Of a stretch of DNA of 62,073 nucleotides, positions 19,217-35,763 are shown piece by piece. Position numbers and translations under genes: made by a program. Positions within the stretch are counted from its first letter, which is position 1. The number at the start of each line of letters is the position of its first letter. This DNA comes from Spirochaetes bacterium GWE1_32_154 (GTDB lineage Bacteria > Spirochaetota > GWE2-31-10). The notes beneath the pieces were generated by a model, which made no database searches, was not told where the DNA came from, and saw only the letters and a list, made by a program, of their open reading frames with translations. The stretch covers positions 1-62,073 of the forward strand of contig MIAY01000023.1 of the NCBI GenBank assembly GCA_001829315.1, read 5' to 3'.

Positions 19217-19243
19217 CCTCATATTAAAATAATACTCTTTATA

Positions 19244-31065: not shown

Positions 31066-31446
31066 ATTTTGCTCCTCAGTGTAATATTTAACCGGATTCT
31101 GCTATTGTAAAAATGTATAATTCGGCGATATATTTTATTACAATAAAAACTGAATGTCGAGGTCTTGTAAAAATAATGTGTACATTTCTTTTTCTCTCTA
31201 TATTCTCAGTTGATCCGTATAAACAACTTACTGAATTGACTTCATTTAAACCTCTTGCAAAGAAGTTGTTTATCCCGATTTTTTTCATGAGAAGACTCAG
31301 GCAAAATGCCCGGGCAATAAGCGATAGCGTACTTAAAAATCCCCGGCAAAATAAAAAACATGTACTCATGGTTTTTGCAAAAGCCTCATTTTATTATTTT
31401 ATTTTCTTGCAAATATTGTAATGATGATTTATATTATAATTAAATA
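31066..31446. other. Gene-free stretch upstream of the symporter operon
   Basis: Two open frames on opposite strands (plus 31113-31421, minus 31088-31369) lack a ribosome site and have no protein-like pattern, so neither is called. A half-repeat-like TTTTTGCAAAAGCCTCA lies near 31373-31390. The region should hold the promoter of the symporter operon, but no clear -35/-10 pair was chosen. Confidence 0.4.
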
Positions 31447-31668
31447 ATGAGGCTCTTTCAAAATCAAGAATACTTGATTAAATGAAGAACACTTTTTTTG
31501 CGTTCACCGAGGATTTTTAAGTACTCTAAAAATATCCATACGCAATAAAATTGCGTTTCGGGGTGCCGAAAACTGCACCTAATCGTAATGAATAGATTAC
31601 AGATCGGGCATGCAACCGGGTAGCCTCATGCAAGAATTCAAGATAAAAAAAGTGTTTTTGCAAGAGGC
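31447..31668. repeat. Composite dispersed repeat element (222 bp)
   Basis: This is the longest member of the family. The left end GAGGCTCTTTCAAAATCAAG is followed by the short hairpin TCAAGAATACTTGA, then a central segment with inverted repeats (GCAATAAAATTGC), and ends in a hairpin with arms GCCTCATGCAAGAA and TTTTTGCAAGAGGC (31623-31668). It occupies the whole region just upstream of the amidoligase operon. Its last bases (AAGAGG) serve as the ribosome site of the first gene. It encodes no protein. Confidence 0.7.
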
Positions 31669-31672
31669 ACTA

Positions 31673-32401
31673 ATGAACAAACAATTAATAATTGATATGC
31701 ACAAGCAACCGGACGATACAACGTGCGGCCCCACTTCTCTTCATGCAGTTTACAGATATTATGAAGATGCAATCTCTTTAGAAGAAGTTATTTCTCAGGT
31801 AAACAAACTCGATGGAGGTGGTACCTTAGCAGTAATGCTCGGGATTCATGCTCTAAAACGCGGATATAAAGCAACAATATACACGTACAACTTACAAGTT
31901 TTCGACCCGAGCTGGTTTAACGAAAGACAAAAAACTAATCTATCAGCAAAATTAAAAGAACAAGCAGTTGCTAAAAAAAATAATTTAAAACTACAATTTG
32001 CGATAAGCGGATATTTGGAATTTCTTTCACTTGGCGGAACTGTCAAATTTGAAGATTTAACAGGAGATCTTATCAGAAAGTATTTAACCAGAGATATTCC
32101 CATTTTATGCGGTCTTAGCTCAACATACTTATACAATTGTTCAAGAGAAATTGATTCGCCGGAAGATGGTTTTAACGATATTGAAGGTGAGCCTGCCGGT
32201 CATTTTGTAGTTATTTACGGCTATGACAAATCGGACAGAAAAATCCTTGTCGCCGATCCGTTATTTACAAATCCTCTCTCACCGAATAATCACTATTACA
32301 AAGTTGATTCAAGAAGACTCAATAATTCAATTTTACTTGGAATGATTACGTATGATGCAAATTTACTCATAATAGAAAAAGGGAAAAAAATATGTCGATA
32401 A
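31673..32401 (+). CDS. C39-like papain-fold peptidase, amidoligase operon
   Basis: A 242-residue cytoplasmic cysteine peptidase-like protein. The catalytic Cys18 is in DDTTCGPTSLHAV, and a histidine in AGHFVVIYGYD with a following aspartate in LVADPLF completes the C39/papain-like set. No transporter domain is attached. It probably trims or removes the peptide made by the neighbouring ligases. The start is placed at 31673: the longer frame would translate the repeat. AAGAGG, from the repeat end, is the ribosome site 6 nt upstream. The end overlaps the RimK gene by 10 nt. Confidence 0.82.
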   Translation: MNKQLIIDMHKQPDDTTCGPTSLHAVYRYYEDAISLEEVISQVNKLDGGGTLAVMLGIHALKRGYKATIYTYNLQVFDPSWFNERQKTNLSAKLKEQAVAKKNNLKLQFAISGYLEFLSLGGTVKFEDLTGDLIRKYLTRDIPILCGLSSTYLYNCSREIDSPEDGFNDIEGEPAGHFVVIYGYDKSDRKILVADPLFTNPLSPNNHYYKVDSRRLNNSILLGMITYDANLLIIEKGKKICR

Positions 32402-33855
32402 TTATTGTTGTTGATAACCCCAAAAAATGGCAATTCAACATACCGGGGATTGATGTCGTCTCAGCTAAAAGTTATTTAACAACACAAAATTTCATTGATG
32501 CAAAAGACCTGAGAGTTTTTAATCTTTGCAAAAGTTATAAATATCAGCGTATGGGTTATTATGTTTCTCTTATTGCAGTTGCCCGGGGACACAAAGCGAT
32601 TCCCAATGTACGGACAATTCAAAATATGAAGTCTCAAGCAGTAATAAAAATTATTACTGATGATCTTAATCAAAGTATTCAAAAAAGCCTTAATCATTTA
32701 CATACTAATAATTTTACTTTGAGTATTTATTTCGGAAAAAATATCGCAGCGATGTATGATAAACTTAGTATTCAACTATTTAATTTATTTCAGGCGCCTC
32801 TCCTACGGGCATATTTTGTAAAAAACAACGATGAATGGCAACTGCAGAATATCAGTCCGATTCCTGCAAGCGAAATTCCTCATGAACATAAAGTTTTTGT
32901 AGAAAAGCTTGCGGCTACCTATTTCTCAACACGAAATTTCAGTGTACCTCAAAGAAGCAATAATCCTTATGACATGGCAATTCTCATCAATAAGGAAGAA
33001 AAAGATCCTCCATCAAACGAAAAAGCATTACTTAAATTTCAAAAAGCAGCAGAGAAACTCGGTTTTAATGTTGATTTCATCACAAAAGATGATTACAATA
33101 AAATCGGTGAATATGATGCATTATTTATCCGTGAAACCACACGAGTGAATCATCATACATTCAGATTTGCTCAACGGGCTTATGAAGAAGGTCTTGTTGT
33201 TATTGATGACCCGATTTCAATTTTACGATGCAGTAATAAAGTATATCTAGCCGAACTATTAAGCCATCATTCTATATCAACACCGAAAACGGTCATTATT
33301 CACCACGATAATATCGATCAGGCAATCGATGAAATAGGTTTTCCCTGTATATTAAAACAACCGGACAGTGCTTTTTCACGAGGGGTCGTAAAAGTAACCA
33401 GTAAAGAAGAATACAATGTAGAATTAAATAAACTTTTTGAAACTTCAGATCTTATTATCGCCCAGGAATTTATGCCAACCGAATTCGACTGGCGTGTGGG
33501 AATAATTGATAACGAACCTATTTTTGTATGTAAATATTACATGGCAAAATCCCATTGGCAAATATACAATTGGGAAAAAGAGGACTGCAGTAAATGTGGT
33601 AAAACAGAAACAATGATACCTGAGCAGGCACCACGATCTGTTATTTCCATTGCATTAAAAACGGCAAACCTCATTGGTGATGGTTTTTACGGTGTCGATT
33701 TAAAACAAATCGGAAATAAATGTTACATCATTGAAATCAATGACAACCCGAGTGTCGATTTCGGGCTTGAAGATTCGATTATTAAAGATACATTGTATAA
33801 AAAAATTATGGAAGTTTTCTACAAACGGGTACAACAGAAAAAGGCAAGGGTTTAA
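32392..33855 (+). CDS. RLAN-RimK ATP-grasp amide ligase
   Basis: A 487-residue fusion. Residues about 1-150 match the RimK-like ATP-grasp N-terminal (RLAN) type domain. Residues about 205-480 are a RimK-type ATP-grasp ligase with FIRETTRVNHHTFRFAQRA, the ATP-binding GFPCILKQPDSAFSRGVVKV block and the metal-binding end EINDNPSVDFG. RimK-like enzymes add amino acids, often glutamate, to a carboxyl group through an acyl-phosphate. An unusual CSKCGKTE pair of cysteines is near residue 400. It overlaps the peptidase gene by 10 nt, and the GCS2 gene follows after 2 nt. Confidence 0.9.
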   Translation: MSIIIVVDNPKKWQFNIPGIDVVSAKSYLTTQNFIDAKDLRVFNLCKSYKYQRMGYYVSLIAVARGHKAIPNVRTIQNMKSQAVIKIITDDLNQSIQKSLNHLHTNNFTLSIYFGKNIAAMYDKLSIQLFNLFQAPLLRAYFVKNNDEWQLQNISPIPASEIPHEHKVFVEKLAATYFSTRNFSVPQRSNNPYDMAILINKEEKDPPSNEKALLKFQKAAEKLGFNVDFITKDDYNKIGEYDALFIRETTRVNHHTFRFAQRAYEEGLVVIDDPISILRCSNKVYLAELLSHHSISTPKTVIIHHDNIDQAIDEIGFPCILKQPDSAFSRGVVKVTSKEEYNVELNKLFETSDLIIAQEFMPTEFDWRVGIIDNEPIFVCKYYMAKSHWQIYNWEKEDCSKCGKTETMIPEQAPRSVISIALKTANLIGDGFYGVDLKQIGNKCYIIEINDNPSVDFGLEDSIIKDTLYKKIMEVFYKRVQQKKARV

Positions 33856-33857
33856 AT

Positions 33858-35084
33858 ATGAGCCTTAATTTATTTGAAGGAATCGGCATTGAAATTGAAT
33901 ACATGATCGTAGATTCTAATACCATCTCAATTCAACCTGTAGCGGAAATAATTCTAATTGATTCATCAGGTGAAAGTGTATGCGAATTGAACAAAGGGAC
34001 AATTACTTATTCAAATGAACTTGTCGCACACGTTATCGAATTAAAAACAACAAAACCCGAAAAAACATTGCATGGTCTTGATACTCTTTTTCATAAAGAA
34101 ATACTGGATATTAATACGACACTTTCACACCATAATTGCGTTCTCCTTGGAACTGCCATGCATCCGTTTATGAATACGGACAAAGAAACAGTTCTCTGGA
34201 GTCACGGCGATGACTCAGTTTATAAGGCATTTTCCAGAATATTCGGATGTAAAGGGCATGGATTTTCAAATATACAAAGTGTTCATATTAACCTTCCTTT
34301 CAATGGTGACGAACAATTTGCAGCGCTTCACACGGCTATACGATTAATTTTACCCCTAATACCCGCCCTTTCTGCAAGTTCGCCGATAGCTGACAGCACA
34401 GTGACCGGTTTTTCAGACTCACGCCTTGAATATTACAGAAATAATCAGAATAAAATACCATCCATCGCCGGGAATATAATCCCTGAGTGTATCACATCAA
34501 AAGATGAATATCAGACAAAAATCTTTAATAGAATATATTCAGATATAGCACCCTATGATTCTGATGCCGTTTTACAACACGAATGGCTTAATTCACGTGG
34601 TGCAATTGCCCGATTTGACAGAGATTCGATTGAAATAAGACTTATTGACACTCAGGAATGCCCTAAAGCTGACCTTGCAATTTGTGCGATAGTCATTTCA
34701 GTTATTACAATGTTTGTGAATCAACAGATAACTTCTTTTGAACATCAAAAAAAATGGAGTGAAAAAAACCTTAAAAAAATACTTTTGACCACAATACAAA
34801 ATGGCGGATGCACAATTATAACAGACCGTGAATATTTGCAACTCTTCGGTATTCAAACAACGACGTGCTCAGCAACTGATCTATGGAAACATATTTATAC
34901 AAACATTCTTTCTGGAGATCAATCACTTCACTATTATAATGAAGAAATATCATTAATCCTTGAAAAAGGCACACTATCTGAACGGATTATACAATCATTA
35001 AACAACAATTACTCACATGAAAACATGACAACTGTTTATAAAAAACTGATTCATTCATTAAAGGAAAACAAGCAGTATGTTTGA
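33858..35084 (+). CDS. GCS2-type glutamate-cysteine-ligase-like carboxylate-amine ligase
   Basis: A 408-residue member of the glutamate-cysteine ligase family 2 (YbdK-like, glutamine-synthetase-related fold). Nucleotide/metal-binding features are the opening strand GIGIEIEYMIVD, the strand VAHVIELKTTKPEKTL, the His-containing ILLGTAMHPF-like segment, VHINLPF and the later RDSIEIRLIDTQECP. It forms an amide between a glutamate gamma-carboxyl and an amine with ATP hydrolysis; the true substrate is unknown. Its 3' end overlaps the next gene by 8 nt. With RimK it makes a two-ligase system. Confidence 0.9.
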   Translation: MSLNLFEGIGIEIEYMIVDSNTISIQPVAEIILIDSSGESVCELNKGTITYSNELVAHVIELKTTKPEKTLHGLDTLFHKEILDINTTLSHHNCVLLGTAMHPFMNTDKETVLWSHGDDSVYKAFSRIFGCKGHGFSNIQSVHINLPFNGDEQFAALHTAIRLILPLIPALSASSPIADSTVTGFSDSRLEYYRNNQNKIPSIAGNIIPECITSKDEYQTKIFNRIYSDIAPYDSDAVLQHEWLNSRGAIARFDRDSIEIRLIDTQECPKADLAICAIVISVITMFVNQQITSFEHQKKWSEKNLKKILLTTIQNGGCTIITDREYLQLFGIQTTTCSATDLWKHIYTNILSGDQSLHYYNEEISLILEKGTLSERIIQSLNNNYSHENMTTVYKKLIHSLKENKQYV

Positions 35085-35763
35085 TATAATTGTATTAACC
35101 TGTGAACATGCTACTAATTTCATACCTGATGCCTATACAAAATATTTTATGACTAATCATGAAATTCTTGATACTCACCAGGGTTACGACATTGGGGCTG
35201 ATTTGTTAGCACAATCACTAAGCGGTCAACTTTCAACTGAATATTTAAAACCAACGGTATCAAGACTTCTCATCGACTGCAACCGTTCGATTTGTAATAA
35301 ATCACTCATTTCATCGTGCATTAATCCAATCGACATAACAACAAAAGAAACTATTATTACCGGTTTTTACATCCCATATCGAAATACAGTAAGCAACCGG
35401 ATGAAAAATCTCATTGATTCCGGGAAAAAAGTTCTTCATTTTTCAGTTCATTCATTTACGCCGATACTGAATGGTATTGAAAGAGATGCTGACATTGGTA
35501 TATTGTATGATCCTAAACGCCCTGTTGAAAAAGAATTTGCTACATCGTTTAAAAAAAAATTACAGCAATTTGATAATTCCATTGTGGTAAAATCAAACTA
35601 TCCCTACAAAGGAACGTCTGACGGGTTTACTACTTTTCTACGAACGCACTGTAACTCACCTGACTACTGTGGAATAGAATTAGAAGTGAATCAGAAAATA
35701 ATTTTCCAGTCATCACTGCATGAATTAATCGGTTCTGCACTACGTTGCTACAAGAAACTATAA
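35077..35763 (+). CDS. N-formylglutamate amidohydrolase-like enzyme
   Basis: A 228-residue protein of the N-formylglutamate amidohydrolase family (zinc-dependent, related to carboxypeptidases). Expected blocks are present: LTCEHATNFIP near the start, DTHQGYDIGADLLAQSL, RLLIDCNRS, FSVHSFTPI with the catalytic-type His, and a late GIELEVNQKI. Histidine degradation genes are absent around it, so it more likely cleaves an amide in the product of this operon than formylglutamate. It is the last gene of the four-gene operon. Confidence 0.88.
   Translation: MFDIIVLTCEHATNFIPDAYTKYFMTNHEILDTHQGYDIGADLLAQSLSGQLSTEYLKPTVSRLLIDCNRSICNKSLISSCINPIDITTKETIITGFYIPYRNTVSNRMKNLIDSGKKVLHFSVHSFTPILNGIERDADIGILYDPKRPVEKEFATSFKKKLQQFDNSIVVKSNYPYKGTSDGFTTFLRTHCNSPDYCGIELEVNQKIIFQSSLHELIGSALRCYKKL

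Follow-up and report, generated by a model that had tools for sequence, protein, structure and literature searches.

The window analysed here, 62,073 nucleotides (nt) of contig MIAY01000023.1 from Spirochaetes bacterium GWE1_32_154 (assembly GCA_001829315.1, phylum Spirochaetota), carries an operon for two putative amide-bond ligases and two putative hydrolases. The encoded proteins are a papain-fold hydrolase (PEP), an ATP-grasp ligase with an RLAN domain (RLAN-RimK), a second ligase of the glutamine-synthetase fold (GCS2) and a hydrolase resembling N-formylglutamate amidohydrolase (FGA). The four genes are a real, selected system. Their arrangement lies well beyond chance, since the identical order recurs across phyla. 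The account favoured here, if tentatively, is that of a cytosolic non-ribosomal module that would build and recycle a small glutamate-containing peptide.

Organization and distribution of the operon

A sequence-only reading of the window had described four plus-strand genes in the order given above, with their domains, overlaps of 10 and 8 nt and one gap of 2 nt. Open reading frames and Pfam scores bear this out (Table 1). PEP and RLAN-RimK overlap by 10 nt, RLAN-RimK and GCS2 are separated by 2 nt, and GCS2 and FGA overlap by 8 nt. The reading frame of PEP could formally begin at 31610. Its homologues begin at about 31673 and position 31610 lies inside a dispersed repeat, so that 31673 is most likely the start. 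On reading, the four translations show neither an evident signal peptide nor a long run of hydrophobic residues, and all four proteins are therefore likely to be cytosolic.

Table 1. Genes of the operon and the element directly upstream (window positions)
Feature	Position	Strand	Remarks
PEP, C39-like papain-fold cysteine hydrolase	31673..32401	+	242 aa; PF13529 (Peptidase_C39_2) 42 bits, cut-off 24
RLAN-RimK, ATP-grasp carboxylate-amine ligase with N-terminal RLAN domain	32392..33855	+	487 aa
GCS2, glutamine-synthetase-fold carboxylate-amine ligase	33858..35084	+	408 aa; PF04107 95.8 bits, cut-off 21
FGA, N-formylglutamate-amidohydrolase-like hydrolase	35077..35763	+	228 aa; PF05013 (FGase) 78.6 bits, cut-off 28.9
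Dispersed intergenic repeat, 3' part	31556..31670	+	abuts the PEP start codon; contains Shine-Dalgarno-like AAGAGG

The search for relatives of RLAN-RimK covered GTDB genomes (66 loci), 393 genomes of the window's phylum (40 genomes with RLAN) and plasmids. Profiles of the four proteins were run over the RLAN neighbourhoods, and a GCS2 was counted if it had the same orientation and was no more than 3.5 kb away. The GTDB sample was seeded with the RLAN-RimK of the window and is thus biased to close relatives; the phylum sample is less so. The sequence-only reading had proposed tabulating the neighbours of RLAN-RimK, and had taken homologues mostly devoid of these partners as evidence against a system. 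In this relative-biased sample the tabulation favours a system, with GCS2 alongside at 79 of the 108 RLAN loci read and all four genes at 57. The adverse case was not encountered in this clade, although a sizeable minority of the RLAN-RimK genes have a GNAT gene, a C39-GNAT gene or no partner. The order recurs in Bacteroidota (Rufibacter, Pontibacter, Adhaeribacter, Cesiribacter, Alkaliflexus), Fibrobacterota, Legionella, Desulfobulbaceae and the window's own phylum, that is, in at least five phyla. Culturable carriers include Rufibacter, Pontibacter and Desulfoprunum.

Within the phylum, GCS2 is linked to RLAN in 19 of the 40 RLAN genomes and present but unlinked in 3, a GNAT-type partner stands beside RLAN in 8, neither is found there in 7, and 3 loci meet contig ends. 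Operon-type GCS2 occurs in 24 of the 393 phylum genomes, 22 of which also carry RLAN (Fisher p ~5e-23, kinship ignored); for GCS2 and FGA the co-occurrence has p ~1e-18, kinship likewise ignored. The two genomes without an RLAN match (G051 and G128 in our numbering) bear operon-type GCS2 genes of 383-404 bits, at L153 7483-8730 and L154 2053-3297, where the ligase may serve on its own. In a tree of 65 RLAN-RimK proteins the label for a GCS2 partner is clustered yet interleaved, with 8 changes against 21 when labels are shuffled. Proteins from Legionella, Desulfobulbaceae and Fibrobacter stand among those of other phyla in this quick tree, many of whose deep branches are weak. Their placement is consistent with horizontal transfer.

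Active sites and structure models

In the alignments, the predicted active sites of all four enzymes are essentially invariant among homologues. PEP keeps the catalytic residues Cys18, His177 and Asp195 and the oxyanion Gln12 in 29 of 29 homologues. Its model (mean predicted local distance difference test, pLDDT, of 91) is papain/C39-like according to Foldseek, and PEP thus combines the triad and oxyanion glutamine with the fold of C39-like papain-type enzymes. The PDB matches comprise the pseudomurein endoisopeptidase PeiR, C39 transporter peptidases and phytochelatin synthase, with template modelling (TM) scores of ~0.4-0.5, and phytochelatin synthase is no closer than the C39 peptidases. 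Because these matches are generic for the fold, PEP may catalyse either hydrolysis or acyl transfer.

RLAN-RimK matches PF14401 over residues 25-171 (159.6 bits, cut-off 25) and then PF08443 over residues 281-456 (42.8 bits, cut-off 21), both above cut-off, as expected of its class. Against TIGR00768, the RimK family of alpha-L-glutamate ligases, it reaches 80.3 bits, below the cut-off of 143.4. In RimK of Pseudomonas aeruginosa, R64, R189 and N262 touch poly-glutamate (PMC10092738). A profile alignment places these residues at R247, R368 and N450 of RLAN-RimK, the two arginines occurring in all 46 homologues and N450 in 45 of them; the comparison was limited to R64, S68, R189 and N262, and S68 is not conserved. 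This correspondence makes a glutamate-like substrate plausible for RLAN-RimK. K283, K322, D436, E448 and N452 are invariant in the aligned set, and H388-W389-Q390 stands where RimK has FRSN, the HW pair being common to LysX. In the model (pLDDT 88, predicted TM score 0.61) the ATP-grasp part resembles RimK, LysX/ArgX and Ddl. The best listed structure matches span ~300 columns, corresponding to the RimK part, and the RLAN domain drew no match of its own among those listed.

GCS2 combines the PF04107 profile with the GhExE motif, the Mg/ATP signature of GCS2 enzymes (PMC2588565). The motif reads G10-I-E12-I-E14, and its G10, E12 and E14 are invariant. E12, E14, N53, E54, H143, N145, R189, N245, R247, E259 and R261 are found in 34 of 34 homologues. 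Scores against the equivalog models of glutamate-cysteine ligases and YbdK are 57.9 bits against the YbdK cut-off of 176.4, 53.4 against 371, and lower for the others. FGA matches PF05013 and retains E10, H11, D38, R63, N69, R70, H121, H125 and E201 in 29 of 29 homologues; among these, E10, H11, D38, H121, H125 and E201 are of the metal-site type. Its nearest structure is 2odf (Atu2144).

Rearranged and alternative gene sets

In one genome of the sample (G252) the operon is divided. RLAN-RimK and GCS2 lie on contig 27 (L113), whereas contig 42 (L159) carries PEP and FGA, which overlap by 1 nt. The split falls exactly between bond makers and bond breakers. Another arrangement occurs in three genomes (G188, G191, G194), where a C26 hydrolase gene, PEP and RLAN-RimK stand in tandem with gaps of 95-250 nt and 12-17 nt. 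A profile search of these genomes gave no FGA match. Their C26 gene keeps the GICRG nucleophile motif and scores 100 and 120 bits against the model of PuuD, the gamma-glutamyl-GABA hydrolase (cut-off 266). GCS2 lies elsewhere, directly after the family-3 binding protein, permease and ATPase genes of a polar-amino-acid ABC importer. These C26 and importer contexts point to small amino-acid-derived substrates.

Other relatives associate with genes for GNAT acetyltransferases. RLAN-RimK follows a GNAT-C39 (DUF3335) fusion gene in four members of the phylum and in Azospirillum, is fused to an N-terminal GNAT in Bacteroidales, Crocinitomix and two phylum members, and at one locus (L083) adjoins a separate GNAT gene. 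The DUF3335-GNAT fusion has been noted before, with no function given (PMC10318531). GCS2 and GNAT were seen together at none of the RLAN loci examined. A stand-alone RLAN-RimK, ~41% identical, was also noted on the P. aeruginosa plasmid pZYPA1927 (L138 6905-8494), adjoining pagP, a glutamate/aspartate ABC transporter and a gamma-glutamyltransferase in an apparently chromosomal segment.

Within 800 nt of the 79 operons no small open reading frame is conserved beyond single genera or close relatives, and a precursor-peptide or carrier frame was rejected for this reason. Small-molecule substrates are favoured because of this result and the importer, C26 and FGase contexts. Extra neighbours, among them a phosphatase-like gene in Fibrobacter, a divergent M19 dipeptidase gene in Flavobacteriaceae, HDAC-like and Dus genes, are not conserved across genera. 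The Fibrobacter gene encodes 434-475 aa and lies between GCS2 and FGA in some genomes (e.g., L030 10863-12215); it is tyrosine-phosphatase-like where scanned and overlaps FGA by 1 nt in several. In one family (f9), FGA homologues without RLAN precede two genes for TldD/PmbA metallopeptidases (L155 6535-10120; L160 5950-9506 has equal gene sizes), which suggests a separate FGase-TldD/E set for peptide degradation.

Proposed pathway and competing explanations

Enzymes of the FGase family hydrolyse R-CO-NH-Glu, and RimK-family enzymes make this bond. Gamma-glutamyl amides are made by GCS2 enzymes and cut by C26 enzymes. On account of these family chemistries the gene set can be read as one pair of enzymes that make glutamyl amides and one pair that break them. 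The analysis shows the gene set itself, its conservation and co-occurrence, the intact active sites and the conserved glutamate contacts; the substrates, the order of the reactions, the product and the direction of flux are inferred as follows. GCS2 would activate a side-chain carboxylate, probably the gamma-carboxylate of glutamate, and couple it to an amino acid X through the amine of the latter, so that a gamma-glutamyl-X with a capped amine results. RLAN-RimK would then activate the free carboxylate of this product and add an acidic amino acid, probably glutamate, to yield cap-X-Glu, with the acceptor perhaps held in place by the RLAN domain. FGA would hydrolyse R-CO-NH-Glu, the type of bond formed by RLAN-RimK, and PEP would cleave the remaining amide, or transfer it through a thioester, returning amino acids. 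In relatives, capping would fall to a GNAT instead of GCS2, and a C26 enzyme resembling gamma-glutamyl hydrolase would take the place of FGA. Each of the alternating enzymes, GCS2 and GNAT, would first acylate an amine, and RLAN-RimK would then lengthen the carboxyl end, a logic of capping and then extending. It is possible, with still more reserve, that the product is a new glutamyl peptide of low molecular mass, either a capped X-Glu or a gamma-Glu-X-Glu compound, with recycling enzymes of its own, spread horizontally over at least five phyla, and that GNAT-type relatives make an N-acetylated counterpart.

The sequence-only reading had held that the ligases make such bonds and the hydrolases remove them. 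This agrees with all that was found, above all with the maker/breaker split in G252; the chemistry of the enzymes is that predicted from their sequences. Several points weigh against a recycled glutamyl peptide. The closest solved ligase structures by model comparison (RimK with RpsF, LysX, ArgX) belong to enzymes that act on protein C-termini. Glutamate is not assured as the carboxylate substrate of GCS2, given scores far below the YbdK and GshA cut-offs, and the assignment of each hydrolase to a bond is a guess. The importer and C26 contexts stem from three genomes of one family, and the seven RLAN genomes with neither GCS2 nor GNAT beside RLAN belong here too.

The sequence-only reading had left the choice between a metabolite and a protein tag. 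The context leans to a small metabolite, and a small glutamyl peptide is provisionally preferred to protein tagging, which is rated as unlikely; a protein acceptor is conceivable because RimK and LysX/ArgX use one. RimK adds glutamate to ribosomal protein S6, and FGase- and C26-type hydrolases act on small molecules. In a reversible protein modification, RLAN-RimK, perhaps with GCS2, would add glutamate-type residues to a cellular protein, and PEP and FGA would remove them. This would suit an ATP-grasp domain most like RimK and LysX/ArgX, with their C-terminal protein acceptors, and an extra RLAN domain that could bind a protein. RLAN relatives also pair with RimI-like GNATs and C39 peptidases, and RimK and a partner protease act together in Pseudomonas (PMC11957791). 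However, the surroundings of the 79 operons offer no conserved tag, carrier or target gene, GCS2 is relocated beside an amino-acid importer in three genomes, the hydrolases are of small-molecule families, and RLAN-RimK, at 80 bits, stays below the RimK-family cut-off of 143.

A catabolic gamma-glutamylation appears improbable. GCS2 would here attach glutamate to an amine or amino acid that is imported to be broken down, and release of the product would fall to the hydrolases, as PuuA-PuuD do with putrescine. The position of GCS2 beside the importer, in the genomes with the PuuD-related C26 gene, fits this explanation, but the neighbourhood scans revealed no oxidoreductase or aminotransferase conserved with the gene set, and RLAN-RimK, its most conserved member, would have no role.

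A replacement for glutathione is quite improbable. In this case GCS2 would form gamma-glutamylcysteine or an analogue, RLAN-RimK would add the third residue and PEP would act on the thiol peptide like phytochelatin synthase. The sequence-only reading had seen no genes for glutathione or histidine degradation nearby, which holds, and the whole genome has no match to the ATP-grasp domain of glutathione synthetase (GSH-S_ATP, PF02955) or to FTCD. Its only GCS2 is that of the operon. The absence of GSH-S_ATP and of another GCS2, the GCS2 fold, the GshB/RimK-type second ligase and the phytochelatin synthase among the structural matches of PEP all speak for it. GCS2, however, scores far under the GshA cut-offs, the RimK profile is nearer to glutamate-adding ligases than to glutathione synthetase, PEP is no nearer to phytochelatin synthase than to C39 peptidases, and the GNAT-type relatives need no thiol. 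Legionella carries the operon too, and presumably makes glutathione. The glutathione pathway proper was rejected, with no GSH-S_ATP match and GshA-type cut-offs unreached.

That FGA is simply the HutG of the genome, with unrelated neighbours, is highly improbable. In its favour, the genome has no second PF05013 gene and does have a histidine-ammonia-lyase (HutH)-like gene. In several phyla, however, most operons have FGA after GCS2, a conservation of gene order that contradicts this idea. The HutH-like gene is isolated on another contig (C17, L148 8258-9832) with no other hut genes around, and no hut operon was seen in the genome. The Hut pathway was rejected on the isolation of this gene and the lack of an FTCD match. 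An anti-phage role was likewise rejected, as PADLOC gave no defence match for any of the four proteins, and so was a phage-borne operon, the phage matches being weak ATP-grasp ones in two Yersinia phages.

The repeat upstream of the operon

A dispersed intergenic repeat, whose inverted arms are imperfect, occupies positions 31080-31670. This 591-nt query has 54 further partial matches in the genome, mostly to its 3' 50-115 nt and at ~80-92% identity. Three further partial copies lie in the window, near 19242, 40833 and 54934. The last bases conserved between copies are at 31668, ~5 nt before the PEP start codon, and a predicted terminal hairpin would hold the AAGAGG site of the operon, which resembles a ribosome-binding site. 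Rfam gave no structured RNA in the window.

Relation to known systems and significance

Iyer, Abhiman, Burroughs and Aravind reportedly predicted clusters of RLAN/RimK-like amidoligases in 2009 (Mol Biosyst 5:1636), the work said to be the source of the Pfam RLAN domain. Those clusters reportedly also join RLAN-RimK with peptidases, other amidoligases and GNATs. The four-gene set is a further case of this known but uncharacterised class. The literature searched, which did not include that paper, contained no study or biochemistry of the set. New here are the quantified linkage, the maker/breaker split, the alternation of FGA with C26 and of GCS2 with GNAT, the link to an importer and the conserved glutamate contacts.

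RLAN-RimK shares its ATP-grasp fold with RimK and LysX/ArgX and keeps the RimK glutamate contacts R64, R189 and N262. It differs in the extra RLAN domain, the H388-W389-Q390 signature and the RimK score below cut-off, and the RimABK system is without the operon's partner genes. In the synthesis of N-acetylglutaminylglutamine amide (NAGGN), an N-terminal cap and an ATP-grasp ligase yield a small dipeptide, and hydrolase and amidotransferase-type genes are neighbours. This trio shares the cap and ATP-grasp logic, and the GNAT-RLAN-RimK fusions of relatives resemble its GNAT-ATP-grasp synthetase. However, TIGR03103 is missing from the 25 best NCBIfam matches of RLAN-RimK, and relatives give only weak partial GNAT matches to it (26-36 bits against 569). 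With the YbdK/GCS2 glutamate-cysteine ligases the operon GCS2 has the fold and the GhExE motif in common, whereas it is ~40 aa longer than YbdK models, is locked to RLAN-RimK and scores 57.9 bits against 176. Pupylation-type peptide tagging differs in its small tag, for which no conserved frame is found near the 79 operons.

Redox buffers, osmolytes, tails of cofactors and storage compounds are frequent roles of small glutamyl peptides. The operon represents a conserved pathway with two enzymes that form bonds and two that break them, and culturable bacteria carry it. The gene set, its interchangeable parts (GCS2 or GNAT as cap, FGase or C26 as hydrolase) and the link to an importer make its product directly testable.

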